A DNA stretch of 20,150 nucleotides from a virus. Where the stretch lies: the IMG/VR virus record IMGVR_UViG_3300009702_000096, positions 1 through 20,150 of that record; one strand, 5' to 3'. This document shows positions 2,835 to 15,481 of the stretch, piece after piece. Below the pieces are notes generated by a model that was given only the letters and a program-made list of their open reading frames with translations, was not told where the DNA came from and ran no database searches. The first letter of the stretch is position 1. Every line of letters starts with the position of its first letter. The translations under genes and the position numbers were made by a program.

Positions 2835-4745
2835 TCAGGCAGTAATTTCTTCAATGGTTGCTTCGTGAGCGATTGCGTTCATGGACCCAAGCGCACTGCC
2901 AGCAACCTGAGCAGCCACGTTCGCGGCTGACGTAGCAGCTTCGGTATTGGCTTTGACACTTTCAAGAAACAGCTGCGTTTGCTTCACAAACAACTCCAGG
3001 TTAGACCTGAAAGCCTCTGCGCTGGCATTAACCTCTGAGTTAAATCCAGCAGTTTGCGCGTCGTACATCTGAACTTTTGCCTCATTGACCGCTTTGAGCC
3101 TGGCTACATCGGCTTTGAATTTCTCCACATCCGCCGAGTATTTAAGCCCTTCTGTTTTTAGCTGGGCTTCAAACTTCTGTAGTTGCGCTTGGAACTTCTC
3201 AGTCACTGCCCGGTTATACGCAGCCTCACTGTTGAGAACAGCTACCCCTGCGTCCAACTTGGCTTTCTCTGCGTCGATCTGAGTCTGATACGCCCTCACT
3301 TGCTCAGTGTATGCGGTCACCTTAGCGGTATCCCCAGCAAGAGAGGCTTCATAGGCTTTCAGTTCTAGCTCCTTACTTTGAACCTTCGTCCCGTAGGCTC
3401 TTACCTGGCTTTCAAAAATATTTACCTTCAGCTGTTCTAACTTAGCTCTTGTGTTAATAGCTTCAAGTTTCTTAGAATAGATATCTACAAGGGATTGTTG
3501 AGCGTCTATACGAGCCTTCCACGCATCTACTGCTATCTGCTCTGCCGATTTCTTTGTTCGTTCAGCCTCCAACTCTATTTTGAACGCCTCCAAATCCGCT
3601 AACGCTGCTTTCAGCCGGGTATCGTATACTTCTGCCTCTACACGTAGCACCTCTGCCTCTGCTCTATACCTATCCAGGTATAACTTGAACATATCGGTTA
3701 TCATCGAGGCAAAGGTCTTCGCGTCTTCTATCGCTTGACTATATAGTGTCGCATGAGCCTGGAAAAATCCAAGCGCCGCCGACCATACTGCTTGACGAAG
3801 CTGACCGGATAGATTCATACAGAACTGCAGGTGTTGGATTTCTATCTTGGTGCGCTCTATGGCGGTCTCTGCAGCAAACTCAGCATTACGGTTCGCTGCA
3901 TCTCGTGAAGACGCTCGCAAAGCTTCATGCATCGCCCCTGGAGGGGCTACGAATCCGCGCTTGGCGAACTCAGCCACTGCTGTAGCTTGTTGTGCCTGGC
4001 TCTCTGCCACTACCCGGTTCCGTCCTCGGTCGAAAATCCGCTGCTCAATGGAATCAGGCAACACGGTGCCATCTAACCCCTCGCTGATACGCTTCTCTAG
4101 TTTGCTCATAGCAGCGTTATACTCAGGGATGTATTGATTCACCCATCCATCTACCAGGTTGTCTACGAAGTTCGCTACTTGAGGAAGGACCGATGCACGC
4201 CGAGACGCATAGTCTTGGGCAGGGTTGATATCTCCCGGGGCCGTCCCAGTGAATATCGCATCGAATGTTGGGACCGTGGGCCTCGGAGTTGCCCGCAGGT
4301 TCAGCTGGGACACTTCTGGCGCAACCGGAATATCAATCGTAGGGGCGTCCGGCACTACGAAGTTCGTGTTCACGGTTGGGCTGCTCGGAGCCGGAGGAAG
4401 ATCCAGAGATGGCTTGGTCTGCTGGAACAGCGCGCTGGTATCTAATGCATTCGGAGGAGTGATGCTAGATATAGACGAGCTACTAGGCGCAGGGGAGATG
4501 GGTATAAACGTAGGGTCCGGTATACTCGCTGTTGGAGGTGTATACGACCCAGTAAACGCAGGTACTGAAGTATCGAAGTTAGGCGGCTTTGGAGCAGTAG
4601 GCGTAGTAAACTGCGCAGGAGCATTAGAGTTATTGAGTTGAGTAAACGTCGCAATCTGTCCCAGCAACCTATGAGCGTCGTCTACAAACTGTGTTGCAGT
4701 CTGTTTAGCCGTATTGAAAAACGCAGTGGTGTCTACCGTAGTCAT
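2835..4745 (-). CDS. Proline-rich plus coiled-coil virion protein
   Basis: This 636-residue protein has a clear two-part build. Residues about 40-175 are Pro/Thr/Ser-rich and look extended. From about 180 to 600 the sequence is almost all helix-forming, with long Ala/Glu/Lys/Gln stretches such as KAALADLEAFKIELEAE and FQAQLQKFEAQLKTEG, which predicts long coiled coils. The boundary part (about 210-275) has the pattern LEKRISEGLDG, then IFDRGRNR, then FAKRGFVAPPGA. I recall this pattern from conserved structural proteins of many short-tailed phages. A short Ala/Gly-rich tail ends the protein. It begins with an ATGA overlap on the upstream gene and a GAGGA Shine-Dalgarno. A rod-like tail or internal virion component is inferred; the exact position in the particle is unknown. 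Confidence 0.85.
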   Translation of the reverse strand: MTTVDTTAFFNTAKQTATQFVDDAHRLLGQIATFTQLNNSNAPAQFTTPTAPKPPNFDTSVPAFTGSYTPPTASIPDPTFIPISPAPSSSSISSITPPNALDTSALFQQTKPSLDLPPAPSSPTVNTNFVVPDAPTIDIPVAPEVSQLNLRATPRPTVPTFDAIFTGTAPGDINPAQDYASRRASVLPQVANFVDNLVDGWVNQYIPEYNAAMSKLEKRISEGLDGTVLPDSIEQRIFDRGRNRVVAESQAQQATAVAEFAKRGFVAPPGAMHEALRASSRDAANRNAEFAAETAIERTKIEIQHLQFCMNLSGQLRQAVWSAALGFFQAHATLYSQAIEDAKTFASMITDMFKLYLDRYRAEAEVLRVEAEVYDTRLKAALADLEAFKIELEAERTKKSAEQIAVDAWKARIDAQQSLVDIYSKKLEAINTRAKLEQLKVNIFESQVRAYGTKVQSKELELKAYEASLAGDTAKVTAYTEQVRAYQTQIDAEKAKLDAGVAVLNSEAAYNRAVTEKFQAQLQKFEAQLKTEGLKYSADVEKFKADVARLKAVNEAKVQMYDAQTAGFNSEVNASAEAFRSNLELFVKQTQLFLESVKANTEAATSAANVAAQVAGSALGSMNAIAHEATIEEITA

Positions 4746-5215
4746 ATTTTCCTCGACAATACATCCACCAAAAATTCTACCCCATCAAGCTTTAAAGGCT
4801 CCCCGTCGAGATTACGAAACGCGAACTGCCAGTAATGTCCCTGTAACCCTTTAGGCATCTGTACCCGCTGAGCACCTTTATCGCTGAGATATAGCCCCTG
4901 GCTTTTTTTGTCTACATCCGTATCCACAAAGACTCTAGATGGTGTAGATAAATAACTATATAGTACTCGCTTTTTATGCTTAGTATCGAAATTTGTAGGA
5001 TGCAGTTTAGCTGCCGCCTGAATAGCTACCCCGGCGTCGGTCTCGCCTCCTAAAGTATACTCCTTGGTACGAGTCAGCCCTAGGTATTCTCCGTTGAAAA
5101 ACACAACCCAATTGAAGGGATAATTAGTAAATGTAGTAGTTTCCCCAACCTTCAAATTAGTTACGTAAGTAATCGGAGGTGCGGACGGACTACTTAGGGT
5201 TGCAATAAGCCTCAT
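4742..5215 (-). CDS. Small beta-rich virion protein, probable tail or fibre accessory
   Basis: This 157-residue protein begins with a Pro/Thr segment and then alternates polar and hydrophobic residues, suggesting beta sheet. The C-terminal third, with HYWQFAFRNLDGEPLKLDG then FLVDVLSRKI, resembles the end of the C-terminal domain of phage tail proteins that finish with a similar N-x-DG and LSR pattern. It may be a separate polypeptide carrying a domain that is fused in other phages. It overlaps the upstream 609-residue gene (ATGA, 4 bases) and the downstream coiled-coil gene (ATGA), so the three are probably translationally coupled. The function is not established. Confidence 0.8.
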   Translation of the reverse strand: MRLIATLSSPSAPPITYVTNLKVGETTTFTNYPFNWVVFFNGEYLGLTRTKEYTLGGETDAGVAIQAAAKLHPTNFDTKHKKRVLYSYLSTPSRVFVDTDVDKKSQGLYLSDKGAQRVQMPKGLQGHYWQFAFRNLDGEPLKLDGVEFLVDVLSRKI

Positions 5216-7041
5216 ATCGGTAACCTAATAATAGCTTGCCCCCAAGAGGTATGCAGCACGGGCAGCGTTCCTTGGAAATTCATTAACTCAGAGGTGCTAG
5301 TCTCCGCTAAGGTACTGATGGATGGCAACACCAGAGTACCATTCATTATACTACCAGTCGATGCAGCAGACCCCAGGGTAGGCGTCGAAAGGATAATCTG
5401 ACCGTACCCGCCGCCGTTGCTCTCACCCATTACCAACCTGGGGAGAGTCCCATGCGCCTCTGCCAGGAAGGTGCCTGTAATATGCCCAGATACAGTCGCC
5501 TTGGGTAGGTTTACTATGGCTTCGCCAGTATCCCCCCAAGGAGAGGTACCGGTGCTAGTCAGGGTGAGCGTCGGCAGAGACGCAGTGGTATCCACCCCAC
5601 TGTACGCCTGCAAAGAAACCTGTGAAGATATCCTCGCGGTCGCATACCCTATGTCTCCACTAATAGCCGCCCCATCCAGCGTAGGCTTAGGAATGGCGGT
5701 GACAAGCAGATTATCTGCAGGGATGAACTGATACTTGGTGTAAGCCTCACTCAGAAGAGGAGACAGTACAGCCGAACCTTCGGCGTACCCTGCTTTGCCA
5801 CCGAGAGAATAGACGGCAGGGAACTCCGCCGTCCCCGACCCGGTTATCTTCGATGTGCCGGTATCTGCTGCCGTAATTGGTGGGAACGTAGCTATCGCCC
5901 CACCTACAACGGTCGGAGGAAGAAGATCCTGTCTTCCTACGACCTGCGCGGCTCTCATAACCGCGCGGCCTACTCCTTTGACTCCTGAGAACCCACGAGC
6001 CTCTAATGCGTTTAGCCCCGTCCGTCCACTACGAACCGAAGAACCAGACGTTGTAGTCGGGGCCGATAGAGACATCCCGATATTCGCGCTGTCTGCTCCA
6101 ACGGAGAAAAACGTAGGGAAGATGCTTTGCCCCGAGGTCTCTTGACGACCTGATGCAGAACCTGCCTGTAGAGGAGCGGCCCGCGCAAGCCCAACCCCTC
6201 CGGACGCGGAGGCTGCTCCTAGTGCGTCGAGCCCAAAGAACGCGGCGGACCCAGCCCCCCAGTTAGCGGGAAGAGAAACGAACCCCGCAGTAGTGATCTC
6301 GTCTCCAGGAGCGTAGAGAGACGAAAGAGTGACCAAGGAGAGAGAAGTGCAAGGACGGCTACTGACATAGACTACAAGGCCATTCTTGCGGTACTCAATT
6401 ACTTGGTTGCGGCGGGTTATTCCAAAAGTATCGTTGCTGTCATAGGGTATGTAGAGACCAGCGACTGCCCTGCCGGATTCAATTACTCGTGCGTAACCCT
6501 TAGAGATATAGAAGCCATACTCTATCTCGCTAGGAGCTATCCAAGTAATTCTTGTCGGGTCAGATAACCCAGTAGCTACCTGTATAGAGGCTGCGGTAAC
6601 CTGGAACGTATAGGCGACGTCTCCGAATAGTTCTAAAGAAGACCGTCCACCCGTGTCCCATGCAAACCTAAGTTCGGCAAGTGCGTCCCGTAGAGACTTC
6701 GAAGGAAGTACAGAAAACGGCAGAGTATACGCAGTGGAGATTAGCGCGTATGTAGAAGATGGATTCCCAAATAGTTTGAGCCCGGTCAACGAAGAAGTAG
6801 ATGAAGCGAGCGGCCCAATCGGGTACCAAAACGGGATGTCTAAGGTTACATCATAGATGGACCTCCCAATAGGCGAAATAACCTGGTCTATACGAATCGG
6901 ATGGATCGGCGTCGAAATGAGGGACGTATACGTACCAGAGAACGGCGCGGGTGCGTACCGAGAAGTAATAGTCGGCGTACCCGCAACCGGGGTGGCTACA
7001 GCTGGCGCGGGGGGATTGTATGGCTTAGTCAAATACGGCAT
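5212..7041 (-). CDS. Tail/fibre protein with jelly-roll-like domain and about 20-residue LP repeats
   Basis: The 609-residue product starts with a Pro/Ala-rich leader (residues 1-35). Residues about 60-255 look like a lectin-type beta sandwich; the stretch FGITRRNQVIEYRKNGLVVY (206-225) followed by SLYAPGDEI has the pattern of jelly-roll or SPRY-like domains in phage host-binding proteins. From about 255 to 609 there are repeated small-residue segments with LP or FP roughly every 19-23 residues (clear cases at 386, 407, 489, 512, 533, 572, 593 and 607), separated by Gly/Ser/Thr-rich turns. This looks like a beta repeat. A host-binding fibre or spike role is inferred from these features and from neighbouring adaptor-like genes. 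The start lies after an 85-base gap with a weak GGGGG Shine-Dalgarno. Confidence 0.85.
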   Translation of the reverse strand: MPYLTKPYNPPAPAVATPVAGTPTITSRYAPAPFSGTYTSLISTPIHPIRIDQVISPIGRSIYDVTLDIPFWYPIGPLASSTSSLTGLKLFGNPSSTYALISTAYTLPFSVLPSKSLRDALAELRFAWDTGGRSSLELFGDVAYTFQVTAASIQVATGLSDPTRITWIAPSEIEYGFYISKGYARVIESGRAVAGLYIPYDSNDTFGITRRNQVIEYRKNGLVVYVSSRPCTSLSLVTLSSLYAPGDEITTAGFVSLPANWGAGSAAFFGLDALGAASASGGVGLARAAPLQAGSASGRQETSGQSIFPTFFSVGADSANIGMSLSAPTTTSGSSVRSGRTGLNALEARGFSGVKGVGRAVMRAAQVVGRQDLLPPTVVGGAIATFPPITAADTGTSKITGSGTAEFPAVYSLGGKAGYAEGSAVLSPLLSEAYTKYQFIPADNLLVTAIPKPTLDGAAISGDIGYATARISSQVSLQAYSGVDTTASLPTLTLTSTGTSPWGDTGEAIVNLPKATVSGHITGTFLAEAHGTLPRLVMGESNGGGYGQIILSTPTLGSAASTGSIMNGTLVLPSISTLAETSTSELMNFQGTLPVLHTSWGQAIIRLPI

Positions 7042-7126: not shown

Positions 7127-7570
7127 TTAGAATGAGGGGATAACAATAGTGAAAAAATCTATAGTCTGAAGGACCCCCACCGTAAGTGACACAGAGGCCA
7201 GGTTCAAATCCGCCACTGCGGTACCCACAGTCCCTTGGATTCTTGGTTCTGTAGTAGATGCCACCCCGGTATCCGTCGCTCCTACGAACCTATAGTACGA
7301 CGCCGTGCCCGTAGCGGTGATTGTTCCAGACCACACTTCTGCAGGGTTCTTGGCCAGAGCCCCGTTGACTGCGGAGGTATCGAACGACAAACCCGTACCA
7401 GTGTTATTGACACTGATGGTAACCAGCAGGTTTGTGCTGGATACAGCATCATCTGCAGTGACCGGGGGTGTTCCAGAATAGATGTTAATAAATCCCCCAG
7501 TCAAGATCGTTTTTAGAGAGCTTGTATCAAGTAGTTGATTACGAAGCCCAGTAGACGTTTTAATAGCCAT
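7127..7570 (-). CDS. Conserved phage virion protein, paralog of the gene at 9895-10353
   Basis: This 147-residue protein belongs to a family I recall from many phage genomes, marked by MAIKTSTGLRNQLLD at the N-terminus, INIYSG, GTGLSFDT, NPAEVW and a C-terminal TID-F-P-F. It is small, rich in Thr, Ser, Gly and Val, with short beta-strand patterns and no cysteine. No enzymatic motif is seen. The family is usually annotated as hypothetical or structural. It lies directly downstream of the 762-residue gene and has a GGAG Shine-Dalgarno 7 bases before the ATG. A role as a small fibre or spike-associated subunit is inferred from context. By hand, about 40 percent of positions match the 152-residue paralog. 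Confidence 0.85.
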   Translation of the reverse strand: MAIKTSTGLRNQLLDTSSLKTILTGGFINIYSGTPPVTADDAVSSTNLLVTISVNNTGTGLSFDTSAVNGALAKNPAEVWSGTITATGTASYYRFVGATDTGVASTTEPRIQGTVGTAVADLNLASVSLTVGVLQTIDFFTIVIPSF

Positions 7571-7606: not shown

Positions 7607-9895
7607 TTAAATCCATCCAATAGGTAATCCAAAGCGTTGTGTTTCTCCTTGGCGTATTACCCAATCATCACTATACACGATTGCGGCATAATTAGCATAC
7701 ACCGCTCCCGTTCTTGTTTGCTGTATGACCGGCGGAGCAGCAGGGTCACTGGCTGTAGGATTATATGGAGCGGTCCCTCCAGCTAACGAGTCATATGTAG
7801 CCGTATATATCGTAGGCGATCCAAATATATATCTACCAATGGCGTAAATATTATACGTATGAATATTAGCAGCAGGCTCTTCAATAGCCTCGAATATTGG
7901 TGATTCAAACGCAGCATGATCCCGCATAACCGATATCGTCTGATATACACGGTCAATAGAAATTATGGAATTATTACCAGTCAAATAAGTAGTTATAGTA
8001 TAAAAGTATCCATTATATGAATATACAACCTCGTCTCGTGAAACACCCATCCCAGGTAAATGATTTGTACCTGGTATTCTGTAACGCGATTTTTCTGATA
8101 CCTGCCTTATATTACTAGAAGCTACAAACACAGATTCACAATCATAGTCCGGGATTACTACATTTGCAGCATACTGTATTCCATCCATACGATAAGTGGT
8201 ATAGTTATTAGTACCTGGGAGGGGGGTGCCGATTGCATGCATTGTTACAGCTTGAAAGCCATGAGCTGTATCATGCGCAGTTCCAGGTATAGTCGTTGGT
8301 GTATTAAACACCCATTCTTCAGCTAATTGTAATAGCGCTGGACCACGACTGCAGAATTCTAATATAGCGTCTACGGAAGTCGTGCCTGCGGCATAATCAC
8401 CTACCTTGGGTACGTGTACCACACGAGGATTACTCCATCTGATATGATCTACACCAGTAGCTGGCGATTGATTAGCCCCTACGAAATTATACTTGGAGGT
8501 ATAAACCCCTAGGGTTCTAGAATTTGTTCGGGGATATATAATGTTTTCCCCACTGACCAACCCACAAAAATTAGCCTTCTTACTTGGTTTCTGTATAACT
8601 GTAAGGCTGGTATGTTTTACATTTACAATGTGAAGTGTATCAGCCCCTAAGGGTCCTGAATCATACCAACAATATACAGGGGCGTCGAAGTCTTCAATAG
8701 CCGAAGACGCAGGAGGAGACATCTCCATAAGTCCAGAAAGATTACACGAATAACACGGTACCTTCACATGAGCAAATCTAGGGTCCCAGCGATTAGGGCC
8801 GGATATCATGGCGAGGTTTCCGGTAAACCCACTTACAGTCCCAGTGCCTTGGTCTACACTAGGAACGAACGTAGCCGTAAATACATACGAGTTTAACTCT
8901 TCGTTCCCAGAAGCATTTATAGTATATCTATGAGTTACTATGGAAGCCTCAGTGCCCATAGTATTAAATTTCCAACTATAGGCTATGGGGTTACCATCAG
9001 CTATAGCTGATAGGTCTATAGTTACAGGGATAGATACTGGGCTAATTGTAGCTACAGCAAATATATAGGACTCAAGCTTCTCTGCTTTCTCAGGGTCTGT
9101 AGCCTTTATAACAAAATACTTAGATACTAAGGACTTCGCTATCTTAGGTATCTCTAATTTCCTAGCATATGCTCCGGTTCTGTTAAGAAATATCAACACC
9201 CATTCTTTAGTACCTTCAGACGTAAACAGCCCTACCCCATTTATACTGGTTGCGGGTCCATCAGGAGCCCCCCAAGGAAGCGATACCCCGTTTATGGATA
9301 AAGTATCCCTCTGTCCTGAACTCGTATAATCGTTACGATTTGCCCCATATACGGCTTGAACAAACTTACGCAGTTTGCCGCTGAAACACCCAGGGGGATT
9401 GAACGCCTGAGTACGTTTCTTGTTTAGGATATTTGGGCAGTACCCAACTGTAGAAGACGACCCAAGCATCGAAGAAACTTTGTCTTTCGACGCACATCCT
9501 AAAGCCGCGCTCTCAAACCCAGAAGTAACCCCTCCTTGACTATGTAAACTATCTATACTTAGGTTTTTTTCAAGCCTGTCTTTAGATGGTAAGGACTGCA
9601 AATATGAATTGAAATATACATTAGCGGGAAGATAGGTCTCAGGTAAACTAGGATGAGTATTGTGATAATAGGAAAATCCAGTTTCTAAATATATCACCCC
9701 ACCGGAGGCCGTAATGTAAATCCATTCTTGCGACCCGTAATAAACTACTCGAACGTATGTACGTCCATTATCTACTGCACAGGCGTAACTGCCACGAGTA
9801 GGGTCTTGTCGTTTGAACTTTCGTATTAGACTACGAGCGAAAGGCACCCACCGAGCAGCTTTACCTGTATCACCATCAAGTTGTATATGGGCCAT
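7607..9895 (-). CDS. Large orphan virion protein, candidate host-binding fibre or spike
   Basis: This 762-residue protein is not recognised. It is rich in Tyr, Asn, Ser, Thr and Gly, with long beta-like stretches, about ten cysteines scattered through it (including PCYSC), and no coiled coil or clear collagen-like repeat. The N-terminal 40 residues are basic (ARSLIRKFKRQDPTRG), perhaps a docking part. The last residues are FGLPIGWI, which match the LPxxW repeat unit of the protein encoded at 12668-14326. The DNA is visibly AT-richer than the head genes. The ATG overlaps the upstream stop (TAATG). A receptor-binding role is inferred from its size, the flanking paralogs and the adaptor-like genes upstream; no catalytic motif is seen. 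Confidence 0.8.
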   Translation of the reverse strand: MAHIQLDGDTGKAARWVPFARSLIRKFKRQDPTRGSYACAVDNGRTYVRVVYYGSQEWIYITASGGVIYLETGFSYYHNTHPSLPETYLPANVYFNSYLQSLPSKDRLEKNLSIDSLHSQGGVTSGFESAALGCASKDKVSSMLGSSSTVGYCPNILNKKRTQAFNPPGCFSGKLRKFVQAVYGANRNDYTSSGQRDTLSINGVSLPWGAPDGPATSINGVGLFTSEGTKEWVLIFLNRTGAYARKLEIPKIAKSLVSKYFVIKATDPEKAEKLESYIFAVATISPVSIPVTIDLSAIADGNPIAYSWKFNTMGTEASIVTHRYTINASGNEELNSYVFTATFVPSVDQGTGTVSGFTGNLAMISGPNRWDPRFAHVKVPCYSCNLSGLMEMSPPASSAIEDFDAPVYCWYDSGPLGADTLHIVNVKHTSLTVIQKPSKKANFCGLVSGENIIYPRTNSRTLGVYTSKYNFVGANQSPATGVDHIRWSNPRVVHVPKVGDYAAGTTSVDAILEFCSRGPALLQLAEEWVFNTPTTIPGTAHDTAHGFQAVTMHAIGTPLPGTNNYTTYRMDGIQYAANVVIPDYDCESVFVASSNIRQVSEKSRYRIPGTNHLPGMGVSRDEVVYSYNGYFYTITTYLTGNNSIISIDRVYQTISVMRDHAAFESPIFEAIEEPAANIHTYNIYAIGRYIFGSPTIYTATYDSLAGGTAPYNPTASDPAAPPVIQQTRTGAVYANYAAIVYSDDWVIRQGETQRFGLPIGWI

Positions 9896-10353
9896 TAAAA
9901 CTCTGGAAGTACGAATTGGAATACATCGATAGTATGCGGGGACCCAACTGTAACATGCACATTACTCATATTGAGGTCACCCCCAGTAGTGGCGATGCTT
10001 CCATCAAGACGTACTTCAACAGTGGATGAAATCGCTGGGTTTCCCCCCGCCGCGAAGAATCTAAACCACCCAGCTGTGCCTGCTACTGTTCCTGTCATTT
10101 GCCATACTTCTGAAGGTAGCTTGGATAGCGTACCAGCAGTCGGAGTGTCGAATGTCAAACCAGTCCCCGATGCGTTTACACTCACTACCCCCAGCAATGT
10201 TCCAGTCGCAGCAGCGTCTGCATTGGCAGGTTGAGCCCCACTATAAACATTGATCAACCCAAGATGTAACGCACCAGCTAAACCGTCTCCATTGAGCGCA
10301 GCCGAACGCCCCAGCAAAATATTCCGTAGTCCTGTAGATAGTTTTATAGCCAT
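9895..10353 (-). CDS. Conserved phage virion protein, divergent paralog of the gene at 7127-7570
   Basis: This 152-residue protein shares with the 147-residue one the N-terminal MAIK-STGLRN-LL, then IN-YSG, SVN--GTGL-FDT, L-K-P-EVW, DLN, TVG and TID-F-P-F in the same order. It has a short insert (about residues 15-30) between the N-terminal motif and IN-YSG. The two are therefore paralogs within one genome, separated by the 762-residue gene. It is small and beta-rich with no catalytic motif. A Shine-Dalgarno-like GAGGA lies upstream, and its stop overlaps the ATG of the 762-residue gene by one base, so production of the two is probably coupled. The function is unknown; a fibre-base or chaperone-like role is possible. 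Confidence 0.85.
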   Translation of the reverse strand: MAIKLSTGLRNILLGRSAALNGDGLAGALHLGLINVYSGAQPANADAAATGTLLGVVSVNASGTGLTFDTPTAGTLSKLPSEVWQMTGTVAGTAGWFRFFAAGGNPAISSTVEVRLDGSIATTGGDLNMSNVHVTVGSPHTIDVFQFVLPEF

Positions 10354-10363
10354 AGTTTAGTCC

Positions 10364-11551
10364 TCAATAAGCGTTGAAAGGAACTCCGTCCAAATTAGTC
10401 ATAACCATTGCGTACGTCTGCCCCTTACGGTTCACTAACGCCGTAGAACAAAAAGACCCAGGGGGCACACTTAGCTTTGACTCGAATTGATTAGTAAAGG
10501 AAGGAAACGTAACTACTCCACGTTCAGTCCACATGGCAACTACGCCATCCTTATCCCTAGCAATTGGGTACCCAGGGGGCATACCGTAGTCTGCAAGTTG
10601 TTTGAGTTGCCCATCGTTGTACAAATAAATTTCCCTCCGGGTACCGACGATTACTCCTTCAGGAGTACCCATCATGCCTGTAACCTGAAACGGCACGGGA
10701 AAGAAGTCTTCCTTTAAATTGAATATCCAGGGCCAATACGGGCGCGACCAAAAAACAAAGCTGGTATCTTGGCTGCTGTCATAGATCGCTGCGAATAATT
10801 TGGCTTCCTGGGCAGCCAAGGCGACCACCCCAGTGGGGATCGACGCCCCGTTTACCTGCTCGATGCTCAAAGGCTTCGCATAATGCTCAAACGAATCGTT
10901 GAACACTATGACCCCACCGTCGAGGGTTCCAACAAAATACAGTTCTTGGGCATCCGGTGGGCTGACATAGACATCTGTGGTGTACCCAGAAGGCGCTGTA
11001 GGGGCTTCTATCCTGAGTGCGGACCCTTCGTCTACCAACACCGTCATAAACGGCCCTGCGGCCCCCTCGATCCCCGTGGTTGTGTTTCTGTATACCGCAG
11101 TCACCTGATATTGCCCGGCGGAGAGAACGCCTGTTTGAGTCGTCACATTGACAGCTGAAGGAATAGGAACCCGGAGCCCTCGATGGTCCACCCCTCGTTC
11201 AATCTGCCCGGCTTGGGTAGCCCCTGCGTAGTAAACAGTATCGCCCCACTCTGCCCAATACAGAGGCTCAGTGCCCACTGTCCCCAACGAACCAGAGAAC
11301 CCTGTTGCATTGCGGACATGCAAACCCCCATTGTCTACCAAAAACAACCGCCTGCCGTCATAGGTGGCATACGCAGCGGTTAGATCGGTAAACCCACCAG
11401 ATTCTACATACCCATCCCGGCGCTCTAGAGTACTGGTCTCATCGATAACGATATTGGTGGCCTCAGCCAGAGCCCCAAACGGCTGGCGCTCGGGGCGTAC
11501 TGTATTGCGGATACCACGAAACTCATCAATAACGCTTACTTGACGAGGCAT
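10364..11551 (-). CDS. Propeller-like tail protein, candidate nozzle or DNA-stabilisation protein
   Basis: The 395-residue product begins with DEFRGIRNTVRPERQPFGAL, then ATNIVIDETSTLERRDG. This is the characteristic start of the phage virion family in which a short N-x-x-x-P motif precedes a beta-propeller. Repeated beta patterns follow, such as LYWAEWGDTVYYAG, EAKLFAAIYD and GVIVGTRREIYLYNDG, consistent with propeller blades. In podoviruses such proteins form the tail nozzle or plug that retains packaged DNA (P22 gp10-like); this comparison is by pattern, not by alignment. It lies just downstream of the fibre-tail adaptor candidate, with two bases between the stop and the ATG (TAGTATG). The start has only a weak Shine-Dalgarno. 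Confidence 0.8.
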   Translation of the reverse strand: MPRQVSVIDEFRGIRNTVRPERQPFGALAEATNIVIDETSTLERRDGYVESGGFTDLTAAYATYDGRRLFLVDNGGLHVRNATGFSGSLGTVGTEPLYWAEWGDTVYYAGATQAGQIERGVDHRGLRVPIPSAVNVTTQTGVLSAGQYQVTAVYRNTTTGIEGAAGPFMTVLVDEGSALRIEAPTAPSGYTTDVYVSPPDAQELYFVGTLDGGVIVFNDSFEHYAKPLSIEQVNGASIPTGVVALAAQEAKLFAAIYDSSQDTSFVFWSRPYWPWIFNLKEDFFPVPFQVTGMMGTPEGVIVGTRREIYLYNDGQLKQLADYGMPPGYPIARDKDGVVAMWTERGVVTFPSFTNQFESKLSVPPGSFCSTALVNRKGQTYAMVMTNLDGVPFNAY

Positions 11552-11552
11552 A

Positions 11553-11849
11553 CTAAATCACCGGATTACAACTGGGCGATACCACGCGAAAACATCCACT
11601 ACCTTCGAGAGTATTACCTTTCGACGTAGTAACTATGGCATTAACTGTATATATACTTCCAGGGGTTCCTCCATCGAGGCGAAACTGGATAGTTTTCCAG
11701 TTAATAGTTGCAAACCCGGATACTAGGTTTACTGGTGTTGTAACAACGGATACTACGTTTGTTATAGTTTCATCAGGTTCTGATCTAAGCAGAAAATCCA
11801 TGTCGAACAACAAACTTTCCGTTGAATATTTAATAAGTACCTGAGACAT
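11553..11849 (-). CDS. Probable phage fibre-tail adaptor protein
   Basis: The 98-residue protein has the pattern LFDMDFLLRSEPDETIT, then ATINWKTIQFRLDGGTPGS, then YTVNAIVTTSKGNTLEGSG. That order (a D-rich start, an L-x-GG-x-PG-x-x-Y-x-V segment and a TTSxGxxxE strand) matches the small Ig-like phage fibre-tail adaptor family as I recall it. These proteins join fibres to the tail or head-tail ring. The start overlaps the upstream stop (TAATG), with an AGGA Shine-Dalgarno about 10 bases before it. The following genes include propeller-like and fibre-like proteins, which agrees with an adaptor role. The assignment rests on motif order only. Confidence 0.8.
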   Translation of the reverse strand: MSQVLIKYSTESLLFDMDFLLRSEPDETITNVVSVVTTPVNLVSGFATINWKTIQFRLDGGTPGSIYTVNAIVTTSKGNTLEGSGCFRVVSPSCNPVI

Positions 11850-12604
11850 TAAACTGAGGTTCCTGACTCACGCAGTGTGTAAACCGTTTTAGTGGCTACG
11901 TCACCAGGGTTCAAGGTCAGTTCCAACCAGATTCCTTGCGCCGACCCAGGTGAATGATTTTGGGTATTCGCCACGTTCTTAGCTAGTGAGTCAAATACAT
12001 ACCCAGTGGGGGCTACCTGTCGATTATTACCGATCCCATTCGTATCCGTACCGTCCAAAACGGATTCTAATGCAAACGCGACCTTGCCTGTTAGGTCTGA
12101 CTGCTCAGAAATTACGGCGTTTGTTAGGGCTAGCGTAGCATTGTTGTTTCGGGAGAATATTTTTTCGTAGTACCGTCTAATCACTCCACCAGTTGCATCC
12201 GCAGCCACGTCATAAAATATCCGCCTAACCTGAAGCACCCCGGGCTCGAACGTAGCTACTGCGGCGGCGGCAGAATCCGTCACAGATACGATCCCAGTAG
12301 TGGCAGCAGACAACACCATTTTCATGATGCGCTCAAACGCCTGCGTGGTCGATACTGGGGTCGTGCCCGCTAATGTAATGATATCGCTGACAATGACTCC
12401 TGAAGCATCTCGTCCAGTTACAGTCAAAGTCTGAGTGGTGTCGGCTACGTTATCGGATACCGCCGTAACTACCCCAGTCGCAGAAATATCTGTAAATACA
12501 ACCTTAGCAGTTGTATCTACCGCGCCGCCTATATTAGTAGTGACGTCATTTTCCGCCATAGTAGCGGACCCATAAAATACGATATCATCTGCAGTGACAG
12601 GCAT
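11849..12604 (-). CDS. Conserved phage virion protein, function unknown
   Basis: This 251-residue protein begins MPVTADDIVFYGSATM and continues with NIGGAVDTTAKVVFTD, TQTLTVTGRDASG and FERIMKMVLSA. I recall this pattern from conserved structural proteins of many tailed phages, annotated only as virion protein. The N-terminal 120 residues look like a beta sandwich. The remainder has IFYDVAAD, then an RRYYEKIFSRNNN stretch, then a Gly/Asn-rich end. No enzymatic motif is visible. It has the best Shine-Dalgarno among the adsorption genes (AAAGGAG, 7 bases before the ATG) and follows a 63-base gap, so it may be a strongly translated head or tail surface subunit. The role is inferred from context. 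Confidence 0.8.
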   Translation of the reverse strand: MPVTADDIVFYGSATMAENDVTTNIGGAVDTTAKVVFTDISATGVVTAVSDNVADTTQTLTVTGRDASGVIVSDIITLAGTTPVSTTQAFERIMKMVLSAATTGIVSVTDSAAAAVATFEPGVLQVRRIFYDVAADATGGVIRRYYEKIFSRNNNATLALTNAVISEQSDLTGKVAFALESVLDGTDTNGIGNNRQVAPTGYVFDSLAKNVANTQNHSPGSAQGIWLELTLNPGDVATKTVYTLRESGTSV

Positions 12605-12667: not shown

Positions 12668-14326
12668 CTAAAATACTTCCCGGGGTCGCACTATAAATAC
12701 TCTATCATTCCCTGGTACAAACACTACGGCGTTGCCTCCTATCCATCCAGTAGGTATACTATAATCACCTAATAACTCCATGGACCAATCCATTGGGTTG
12801 ACCATAGGGTCTCCATAAACTTGCCATATCCATGAGGTAGATATGGAACCAGCTGCGCTTACAGTAACATCGGTAGTATAAGGGATGGCGGTATCAGTAA
12901 GTAAGTTACCCCTCCAGTAAATTGGAAGCACCGCACCTAGACTATTATCTACTACCGGATTCCAAGCCAAAGGCCATGAGGAATCTGCACGTACCAGTTG
13001 AAACCAAGCGATAGTCAAGTTTATGTTGGCAGCCCCCGCCAATACTTGCCGCCATGCTAAAGGAGACACGTTGACCGCATCAGGGCTGCTCTTCCACGCA
13101 ATTGGATGGGAAGTATTAAGCTGCGAAGCAATTACTTGTAACTGACCTCGTGGTAACGAATTACTTTTATTGGTGGTAGCTACCCAATCGACAGAAACTA
13201 AGGCAGAAAGCTGAGAAGTAGACTTGTGTGCGATACTAGAAATGAATTGTTTATCTACAGAACCTCCAAACGCTGTTTCCAAGCTCATGGCTTTATCAAA
13301 ACCATATATCCAATCAATTGGAAGAACAGCATAAGCCGGTACCTGAACGGGCTGTATCCATTCCATAGGTAATACATTATTATTATTATTATTATCTATG
13401 ATGGAGGCGATTGAAACTGGTAAACTACCATGACTATTTGAAGTAGCACTCCATGAAGTCGATATGGTGCTATCGCTTACTGGTGTTGTACTAAAAGCAG
13501 TTGGAGAAGTCTTATCTGCGGATAAAGTACTCGATGACTCAATAGAAAAAGACCTATAGACAAATACCGACCCTGCAGCAGGCCCTACAGTAGGAACAAA
13601 TAGCTTCCTATATCTTATAGGCGCATATGGGTCTGCAAATAATTCTTTTTGTTGTTCTGATGTTAACGCCCATGGGAATACATATACAAATTGATGTGTA
13701 CCAGGAGCAGTGTAGGATGGAGTTTCTATTCCAGACGATAGCTCTAAATCAGATAAACTATTTAAATCAGTTGGTGTTAAGTGTACCACTGAATAGTCGA
13801 AAGTTCCATCCAACCACGCCTTTAAAAGTCCGTTCCCATGGTGTGTCAGTGCATAGTTATAATAAACTCCTGAAGTTATAACATTGGTCGCGCTGTTACC
13901 TGGAGTATCAGCACTAGATAGTACTTTGTATCTATTATTTCCAACGTTTTTTCCTATACCAACAAATTGGGTTGACGATGTCCCGTTACTAAGAGTAGCG
14001 AACCTATTATAACCAGAGCTGTTTAAATAGTTTATAGTCCCTCGACCAATTATAGTCCACTCATCTACTACACTGAAAGTAGTTCCAATAGGGTAAACTA
14101 TTGTATAGCTAGCCGACGAACTTACTAAAAAACTACCATCTAAGTTCCACGTCAACGAACCATTTCTAATAGATGGCGCTACACCTGTAAGTGACTTCGG
14201 TTCCCCGCCCTGCTCTAATCCAAGCAACGCAAAAACAGAGTCACGCGCCATCCAATGCCCCCAGTCTACGGAAACTGGGAGCCTAGGCTTAGACGGTAAC
14301 CGCTGCCTTAGGAGAGCCTCAGGCAT
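12668..14326 (-). CDS. LamG-like virion protein with C-terminal LPxxW repeat array
   Basis: The 552-residue product has two parts. Residues about 50-235 look like a concanavalin/LamG-type beta sandwich: NYALTHHGNGLLKAWLDG and DLELSSG precede the YVFPWALTSEQQKELFADPY block that closes LamG-like domains in many phage proteins. From about 285 to 530 there is a periodic array in which a hydrophobic-P-hydrophobic-x-W motif recurs at W292, 323, 339, 381, 411, 425, 441, 455, 471, 499, 514 and 528. Most gaps are near 15 residues or multiples of it, and intervening copies have lost the Trp. An extra copy (VSVDW) lies at residue 22. A host-surface carbohydrate-binding or fibre role is plausible. The ATG overlaps the upstream stop (TAATG), and a run of six Asn sits at residues 312-317. 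Confidence 0.85.
   Translation of the reverse strand: MPEALLRQRLPSKPRLPVSVDWGHWMARDSVFALLGLEQGGEPKSLTGVAPSIRNGSLTWNLDGSFLVSSSASYTIVYPIGTTFSVVDEWTIIGRGTINYLNSSGYNRFATLSNGTSSTQFVGIGKNVGNNRYKVLSSADTPGNSATNVITSGVYYNYALTHHGNGLLKAWLDGTFDYSVVHLTPTDLNSLSDLELSSGIETPSYTAPGTHQFVYVFPWALTSEQQKELFADPYAPIRYRKLFVPTVGPAAGSVFVYRSFSIESSSTLSADKTSPTAFSTTPVSDSTISTSWSATSNSHGSLPVSIASIIDNNNNNNVLPMEWIQPVQVPAYAVLPIDWIYGFDKAMSLETAFGGSVDKQFISSIAHKSTSQLSALVSVDWVATTNKSNSLPRGQLQVIASQLNTSHPIAWKSSPDAVNVSPLAWRQVLAGAANINLTIAWFQLVRADSSWPLAWNPVVDNSLGAVLPIYWRGNLLTDTAIPYTTDVTVSAAGSISTSWIWQVYGDPMVNPMDWSMELLGDYSIPTGWIGGNAVVFVPGNDRVFIVRPREVF
13376..13393. repeat. (ATT)6 trinucleotide repeat inside the LamG-like gene
   Basis: Six ATT units on the plus strand read as six AAT codons on the minus strand, giving six Asn in a row (residues 312-317) just before the first clear LPMEW repeat. 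Unit length 3 means slippage changes only the length of the Asn tract, not the frame. Confidence 0.95.
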
Positions 14327-14718
14327 TAAAATTCAACCATCATTATTTCTGCTGTACTAGCAGCGACGTTAAACACCCCTAGCAACACGCCTTCGCCATT
14401 ATTGGGCCATGTTACCCCACCATCAGTTGAATGTTGCAGGATCACCGTATAGTCCCCTGCAGCGGTACCGCCAGTAATTTCAATCCGAAGGCTTGCTCCA
14501 TAGTACCCTTCCCCTACCGCGATATTACTAATGCTTGTGCCACTCACCCAAGTCACACTTGCGAGTGACACAGCGGTTAAGAATGTCTGTTCGGTACCCT
14601 CAAATGCCTTACTACCATCAGTGGCGTTAGGTTTCCATCGCAGGCCTTTTACTGTGATAGCTCCAGATACAGCTCCAGTACCATTGTAAACTTGTACTCT
14701 CCAATGCGGACCTAACAT
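14326..14718 (-). CDS. Small beta-rich virion protein, unknown
   Basis: This 130-residue protein is not recognised. Its sequence alternates small polar and hydrophobic residues (ASLRIEITGGTAAGDYTVIL, then QHSTDGGVTWP), which suggests a single beta-sandwich domain. The QHSTDGGxTW pattern also occurs in BNR/Asp-box-like sialidase repeats, but one copy alone does not support that assignment. The start is well supported by AGGAG six bases upstream (14725-14729). The stop overlaps the ATG of the LamG-like gene by one base. It probably is a structural subunit that assembles with the LamG-like protein or precedes it at the tail; the role is inferred from context. Confidence 0.75.
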   Translation of the reverse strand: MLGPHWRVQVYNGTGAVSGAITVKGLRWKPNATDGSKAFEGTEQTFLTAVSLASVTWVSGTSISNIAVGEGYYGASLRIEITGGTAAGDYTVILQHSTDGGVTWPNNGEGVLLGVFNVAASTAEIMMVEF

Positions 14719-14776: not shown

Positions 14777-15481
14777 TTACCCTCCGAAGGGTCGGGAGTA
14801 GGCTGCTTTCCCCCCTTTACCTTCTTGCATCATTCGCTCAAGCTTAGCAGATGCGCGGTTAGAAAAATGCCTCTCGAACTGCGCCAATTCTTTAAGCGCC
14901 TTCGTAGGATCAGATAAATCTGCGTCATTTACAGAGTACGCTTCGTACAACACCCAATGTACCAAATACCTATGCAACCTATCTGGTATGGGAGGAATAT
15001 CAGTGTCTAAAACCAGTTTCTCTGTATCTAAAGGCGCTCTATATACTTCCAGTAGAAGTGTAGTAGCTTTCTCTGGTATAGGAGCTAAATGTATTCCCTC
15101 ATAATCCCGCCAGTAATGTAGCGAGTAATTTGTATACATATTATCCCTAGGAGTAAATCCTATAACAGATAGGTCTGTACGAGATCCAGGGATAACGGTC
15201 GTATATATCGGATTACCTTGTGCATCAACCTGCCCGGTATCAGCACGAGCCCGCACAATAGATTGCACCGAAGGATGCAGTTGATAATCTGCTACAAATG
15301 GTGTAACTGAAATCTGGGTAACTGCCGGAGTAGAAGAATCAAAAATTAGCCGAGAACGCTCCGTAGCCTCTACAACCGCAGTGTTTATAAATGAATTTAG
15401 GTCTGAATTGCGCCAACCATAAGGCGTAACAGTGTCCTGCAGTCTATTTCTGGCTAGGGCGCGTAGCTCTCCTAGGTTCAT
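14777..15481 (-). CDS. Head-tail adaptor (connector) protein
   Basis: This 234-residue protein has the N-terminal pattern LRALARNRLQDT, then WRNSDLNSFINTAVVEATER. That is the hallmark of a widespread phage connector family in which the second helix binds below the portal. The middle is beta-rich (about 55-165, with HYWRDYEGIHLAPIP and LLLEVYRAPL), followed by a helical C-terminal part rich in charged residues. It stands four genes downstream of the capsid gene, as head-completion genes do in podoviruses. Its ATG overlaps the stop of the upstream gene (TAATG) with GAGG upstream. The connector role is established for the family by position and pattern; the exact ring in the neck is inferred. 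Confidence 0.8.
   Translation of the reverse strand: MNLGELRALARNRLQDTVTPYGWRNSDLNSFINTAVVEATERSRLIFDSSTPAVTQISVTPFVADYQLHPSVQSIVRARADTGQVDAQGNPIYTTVIPGSRTDLSVIGFTPRDNMYTNYSLHYWRDYEGIHLAPIPEKATTLLLEVYRAPLDTEKLVLDTDIPPIPDRLHRYLVHWVLYEAYSVNDADLSDPTKALKELAQFERHFSNRASAKLERMMQEGKGGKAAYSRPFGG

Follow-up and report, generated by a model that had tools for sequence, protein, structure and literature searches.

The window considered here, a complete IMG/VR record of 20,150 bases (IMGVR_UViG_3300009702_000096), contains a gene on the minus strand (12668..14326) for a 552-residue protein, P0001, in which tryptophan residues recur at near-regular intervals. This arrangement raises the question of what such an array does in a phage particle, i.e., whether it forms a rigid shaft, binds the host surface, serves as a passive spacer or holds together a segmented fiber.

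A point of reference for the last of these possibilities is found in podophage GP4. In the structure study of Zheng et al., fiber I is said to consist of gp80 dimers, five in number, which an elongated rope protein links together on a 15-fold adaptor. GP4 has a 15:12 mismatch (PMC10925440), and 8JOU_g is a fibril that joins an adhesin to the collar (PMC13243795).

Architecture and periodicity of P0001

From its open reading frame, P0001 is composed of an N-terminal head (residues 1-245, 13592..14326), the Trp-repeat array (residues 283-535, 12722..13480) and a short C-terminal tail (residues 536-552, 12671..12721), all encoded on the minus strand. The head resembles LamG by eye only; the case for the LamG-like domain proposed in the earlier note is weak, as residues 1-245 have no Pfam match even at E 10, and in the closest relative, L009, the corresponding gene matches Laminin_G_3 at E=0.003 only, which is below the Pfam cut-off. 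The tail, FVPGNDRVFIVRPREVF, resembles the tails of the form R-x-phi-x-V in other proteins at the rope position, but because 12% of background ORFs also carry the loose form of this pattern within their final 80 residues, the likeness is by itself weak evidence. No direct homologue of P0001 was found by tblastn in phage records or by Pfam, PHROGs and IMG/VR peptide scans; a tblastn match in Aeromonas phage BUCT552 was rejected, being antisense to an annotated tail gene.

The earlier note had listed Trp at residues 292, 323, 339, 381, 411, 425, 441, 455, 471, 499, 514 and 528, and all 12 positions are correct; two further Trp residues, 451 and 501, lie off the motif. The hydrophobic-P-hydrophobic-x-W motif that it had described around these residues is present, but it is looser than claimed, with Pro in 8 of the 12 copies. 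A loose regular expression for the motif fits half of the copies (6/12); among 5,000 shuffled sequences, it fitted 0.31 copies on average and never more than 4. The proposed spacing near 15 residues is borne out by a periodogram of the Trp positions, which has its best period at 14.7 (1/5,000 shuffles as good), and by a BLOSUM62 autocorrelation over all residues from 281 to 535, where the top lags are 30 and 14 (1/1,000 shuffles as good); the same autocorrelation gave no repeat signal for residues 1-245. When the degenerate copies LPVSI, LPRGQ and IPYTT are taken in together with two inferred units between residues 339 and 381, the array comprises about 17 units at gaps of 14 to 17 residues, mostly 14. 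This gap set is that of the related arrays described below, some of which (L097) also display the alternation of 14 and 16 that is seen in P0001 from residue 411 to 471.

At the DNA level, the sole repeat that Tandem Repeats Finder identified in the array gene is a stretch of (ATT)n at 13376-13395 that encodes an Asn run of P0001. The units are therefore not recent DNA duplications; they have fully diverged and yet have been kept in register.

A family of 14-residue repeats in phages

Related arrays were retrieved from viral contigs by means of a degenerate DNA pattern in which the P-phi-[ED]-W motif comes three times in a row; an earlier pattern had been dropped because it gave simple DNA repeats only. 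About 11 other array genes were found, all in IMG/VR phage contigs (L088, L089, L090/L159, L093, L095/L102, L096, L097/L098, L154, L156, L157 and L158, counted after merging loci that share one contig or one gene). Their units have the consensus D-H-Q-I-P-[VI]-E-W, after which come six variable residues. The Trp-to-Trp spacing is 14, or 15-17 where there are short insertions: among the 141 gaps below 20 residues, 99 measure exactly 14, the rest being 12 and 15-18, and gaps of 28-30 also occur. A three-unit profile of this LPxEW repeat, built without the window, scores P0001 at 41.9 bits (E=1.1e-11) as its sole match among 3,247 proteins, while the best of 1,000 shuffled sequences reached 10.1 bits. 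As judged by this profile, the P0001 array is one diverged member of the LPxEW repeat family.

The family is without a Pfam model, and a literature search on the motif returned nothing relevant. PHROG 6079, annotated as "tail protein", matches several of the related arrays (1e-13 to 3e-6) but not P0001. When the P-phi-[ED]-W pattern was applied to about 85,000 bacterial and archaeal species, one genome each, it picked out 49 stretches, all of them simple DNA repeats or spurious frames and none a diverged array. Within the limits of the DNA pattern used, the family thus looks virus-borne; pattern counts are minimum figures throughout, because the array of the window itself would escape the pattern. 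A set of annotated 42-bp repeats in the Microcystis phage Ma-LMM01 (L152, 5989-6269), which has a weak array resemblance in translation, is intergenic and was judged to be a chance likeness. In L097, near-identical 90-bp units (5 copies, 10187-10635) reach the end of the locus, and just upstream of them are found ORFs of 134 and 370 residues that appear transposase-like by eye.

Exposed Trp residues often bind sugars, and a possible explanation of the array is that of a multivalent adhesin in which every motif attaches directly to a polymer of the host surface. The position of the array after an N-terminal head, which may be lectin-like, would be in line with such a role, as would the PHROG 6079 annotation. 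However, the positions that are conserved in the family are hydrophobic residues, Pro and an acidic residue, the unit length is kept at 14 across unrelated phages, and the array of L156 is found without a large N-terminal head. An adhesin appears to us quite unlikely.

Another explanation would be that the array is a flexible spacer, without a docking function, whose period was left behind by an old tandem duplication. The strong sequence drift in the P0001 array, the expansion at the DNA level in L097 (90 bp x 5) and the poor structure prediction discussed below would all be expected in this case. What makes a spacer improbable is that the register is kept after the DNA similarity between units is gone, and that it is kept across the approximately 11 array genes; retention of the motif in register despite lost DNA similarity argues for selection on each unit.

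Structure prediction

The earlier note had proposed two forms for the array, i.e., a regular beta solenoid or a string of peptide ligands on the virion surface. The first of these corresponds to a self-standing solenoid or triple beta spiral, which would act as a rigid fiber shaft. The adenovirus fiber shaft is a triple beta spiral with a 15-residue repeat, and units of 14-17 residues, each with one hydrophobic strand and Pro, and with short insertions between units, would fit a shaft repeat. AlphaFold2, run with shallow alignments, places a strand at many of the motifs, but the mean pLDDT is 29.5 for P0001, and a highly regular relative reached 43.0. Neither model displays a confident fold, and both are too poor to count for or against a solenoid. 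A Trp in every unit would, in our estimation, be unusual for the packed core of a solenoid, and we consider a self-standing shaft unlikely.

The AlphaFold2 result matches the reported presence, in phage LSH1 and other phages, of a C-terminal region beside such heads that could not be modeled, an observation that puzzled the LSH1 authors (PMC13243795).

Genes surrounding the array

The array lies in a virion gene module: a homologue of a gp77-type adaptor and genes for small virion proteins are found nearby, all on the minus strand. The adaptor homologue is gene J (11553..11849), located two genes downstream of the array gene, which by profile alignment is related to the GP4 fiber-tail adaptor gp77 (PF23148; Pfam 2.9e-10, PDB 8jou_D 4.4e-6). 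P0001 belongs to a real but unnamed repeat family, and its gene has a fiber adaptor in the neighborhood. Between the array gene and the adaptor resides gene K (11849..12604, 251 residues), the product of which is 59% identical to that of its positional counterpart in L156. The array gene is immediately preceded by gene M (14326..14718, 130 residues) and, further upstream, by gene N (14777..15481), a member of the SU10 adaptor family (PF24175); K, M and N are likewise on the minus strand. Gene N is an upstream landmark common to several array loci, and its homologues precede the array gene in L088, L102, L158, L159, L154 and L096.

Gene H (9895..10353) belongs to the small virion protein family phrog_3758 and, from the position of its homologue in L012 (see below), may encode a bead protein; by sequence comparison, gene F (7127..7570) is its paralogue at 49% identity. 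F and H are each followed by a large gene. A search with a gp80 profile found no gp80 homologue in the window, and comparison of K, H/F and M with gp80 by hhalign yielded no detectable relation, so these proteins were rejected as gp80 relatives.

Corresponding cassettes in other phages

The gene order of the window, i.e., array gene, K homologue (59% identity) and gp77 homologue, is found also in L156. This phage looks temperate because a phage integrase and lysis genes were seen by eye among its translated ORFs. In most array loci (L088, L096, L102, L158 and others) no gp77 homologue was found within the locus DNA examined.

About 14 further phages harbor a different short repeat, usually of 20-23 residues, at or near the place of the array gene, often beside gp80. 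In BcepMigl, BcepIL02 and JC1 (all from Burkholderia), Itty13 (Pseudomonas), Mae-JY04 (Microcystis) and the phage DSL-LC06, a gp80-type protein is encoded directly upstream of the short-repeat protein, and the gp77 homologue comes directly after the repeat protein or one gene later. The gp56 protein of BcepMigl matches PF23140 ("GP4 fiber I protein gp80") and PDB 8jou_a, a protein with 10 chains in the PDB entry. The repeat protein of the same phage, gp57, has no PDB match, and the view that it corresponds to the GP4 rope is for this reason unproven.

Related contigs, 80 in number, were gathered via the major capsid protein. In the capsid relatives L009, L012, L015, L017 and L018, a protein with a lag of 20, 21 or 42 is encoded at or next to the adaptor. 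L009, which is the closest syntenic relative, encodes gp80 (1.3e-18), a protein that joins an N-terminal head to 20-residue repeats, and a gp77-like product (3e-4); a glycosyltransferase-like ORF (by eye) lies inside this fiber cassette at 14789-15475. In L012, a homologue of gene H (29% identity) is located directly between the rope-position gene and the adaptor, and H and its paralogue F are therefore candidate bead proteins. Significant periodicity (p<=0.01) was seen in 11 of 16 rope-position genes and in 17 of 229 other ORFs; the corresponding Fisher p of 1.7e-8 is too optimistic, because some rope genes were chosen by eye and several of the loci are related, and the excess of periodicity among these sequences is indicative only.

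When compared to the GP4-type fiber I cassette, which consists of gp80 (PF23140), a repeat protein at the rope position and gp77 (PF23148), the window shares the gp77 homologue two genes downstream, a short-repeat protein in the neighborhood and small virion proteins in the module. It differs in that the repeats are of the 14-residue LPxEW type instead of 20-23 residues rich in Gly, Ala and Ser, that gp80 is not detectable and that an extra gene, K, lies between array and adaptor. We therefore place P0001 with the GP4-type appendages by analogy in position and plan, and not as a proven member, since gp80 was searched for and not detected.

Two other phages display similar plans. In LSH1, gp34-gp35-gp36 comprise an adhesin with an unpredictable C-terminus, a dimer that matches 8JOU_g and an Ig-fold protein (PMC13243795). 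As in the window, a head with an AlphaFold-opaque C-terminal region is followed by a fibril or candidate bead protein and then by an Ig-like protein; LSH1 differs in being a siphovirus, with a beta-helix lyase-like domain for its head. In A-1(L), five flexible bead-chain fibers (gp82-gp81-gp80) that have a larger bead at the tip are carried on a neck ring of 15-fold symmetry (PMC10966104). Here the likeness to the window is one of working plan only. The beads of A-1(L) are trimers that connect to one another head to tail, with no rope involved.

A proposed role as fiber rope

We propose, with a probability of about one half, that P0001 is the rope of a fiber-I-like neck or tail appendage. The proposal builds on three observations, namely the repeat family, the homology of gene J to the adaptor and the recurrent neighborhood, from which we infer the docking of the array, its partner, its orientation and its role as a ruler. 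That the array gene belongs to such a cassette has good support. The N-terminal head would constitute the tip domain, each 14-residue LPxxW segment would dock as an extended strand into a small bead protein (for which H/F, K or M are candidates), and the C-terminus would join the adaptor ring, such that the number of repeats would set the length of the fiber. The string of peptide ligands mentioned above comes nearest to this scheme, except that we seek the partners in the phage's own fiber rather than in the host. If P0001 is a rope of this kind, the period and count of the repeats would predict the bead partner and the fiber length from sequence alone. With this proposal, long, repetitive phage proteins that are opaque to structure prediction acquire a role that can be tested.

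A more tentative extension, which we consider rather doubtful, is that the LPxEW arrays form a second, unrelated class of ropes in which each 14-residue segment docks one bead subunit, the chemistry of the repeat is fitted to beads of another family than gp80, and the number of units serves as a length ruler. In that case, related phages would be expected to swap rope and bead together.

Other repetitive proteins in the window

Three further reading frames on the minus strand of the window display repetitive sequence. A 609-residue protein (5212-7041) has a weak periodicity of 20/21 residues in its C-terminal half (39/1,000 shuffles as good) and could be a second short-repeat virion protein. 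A 636-residue protein (2835-4745), which matches PHROG 10969, has lags of 14, 21, 11 and 18 (0/1,000 shuffles as good), a pattern that suggests a long coiled coil. The ORF at 1-1350 leaves the end of the contig within a low-complexity QPTQP repeat.
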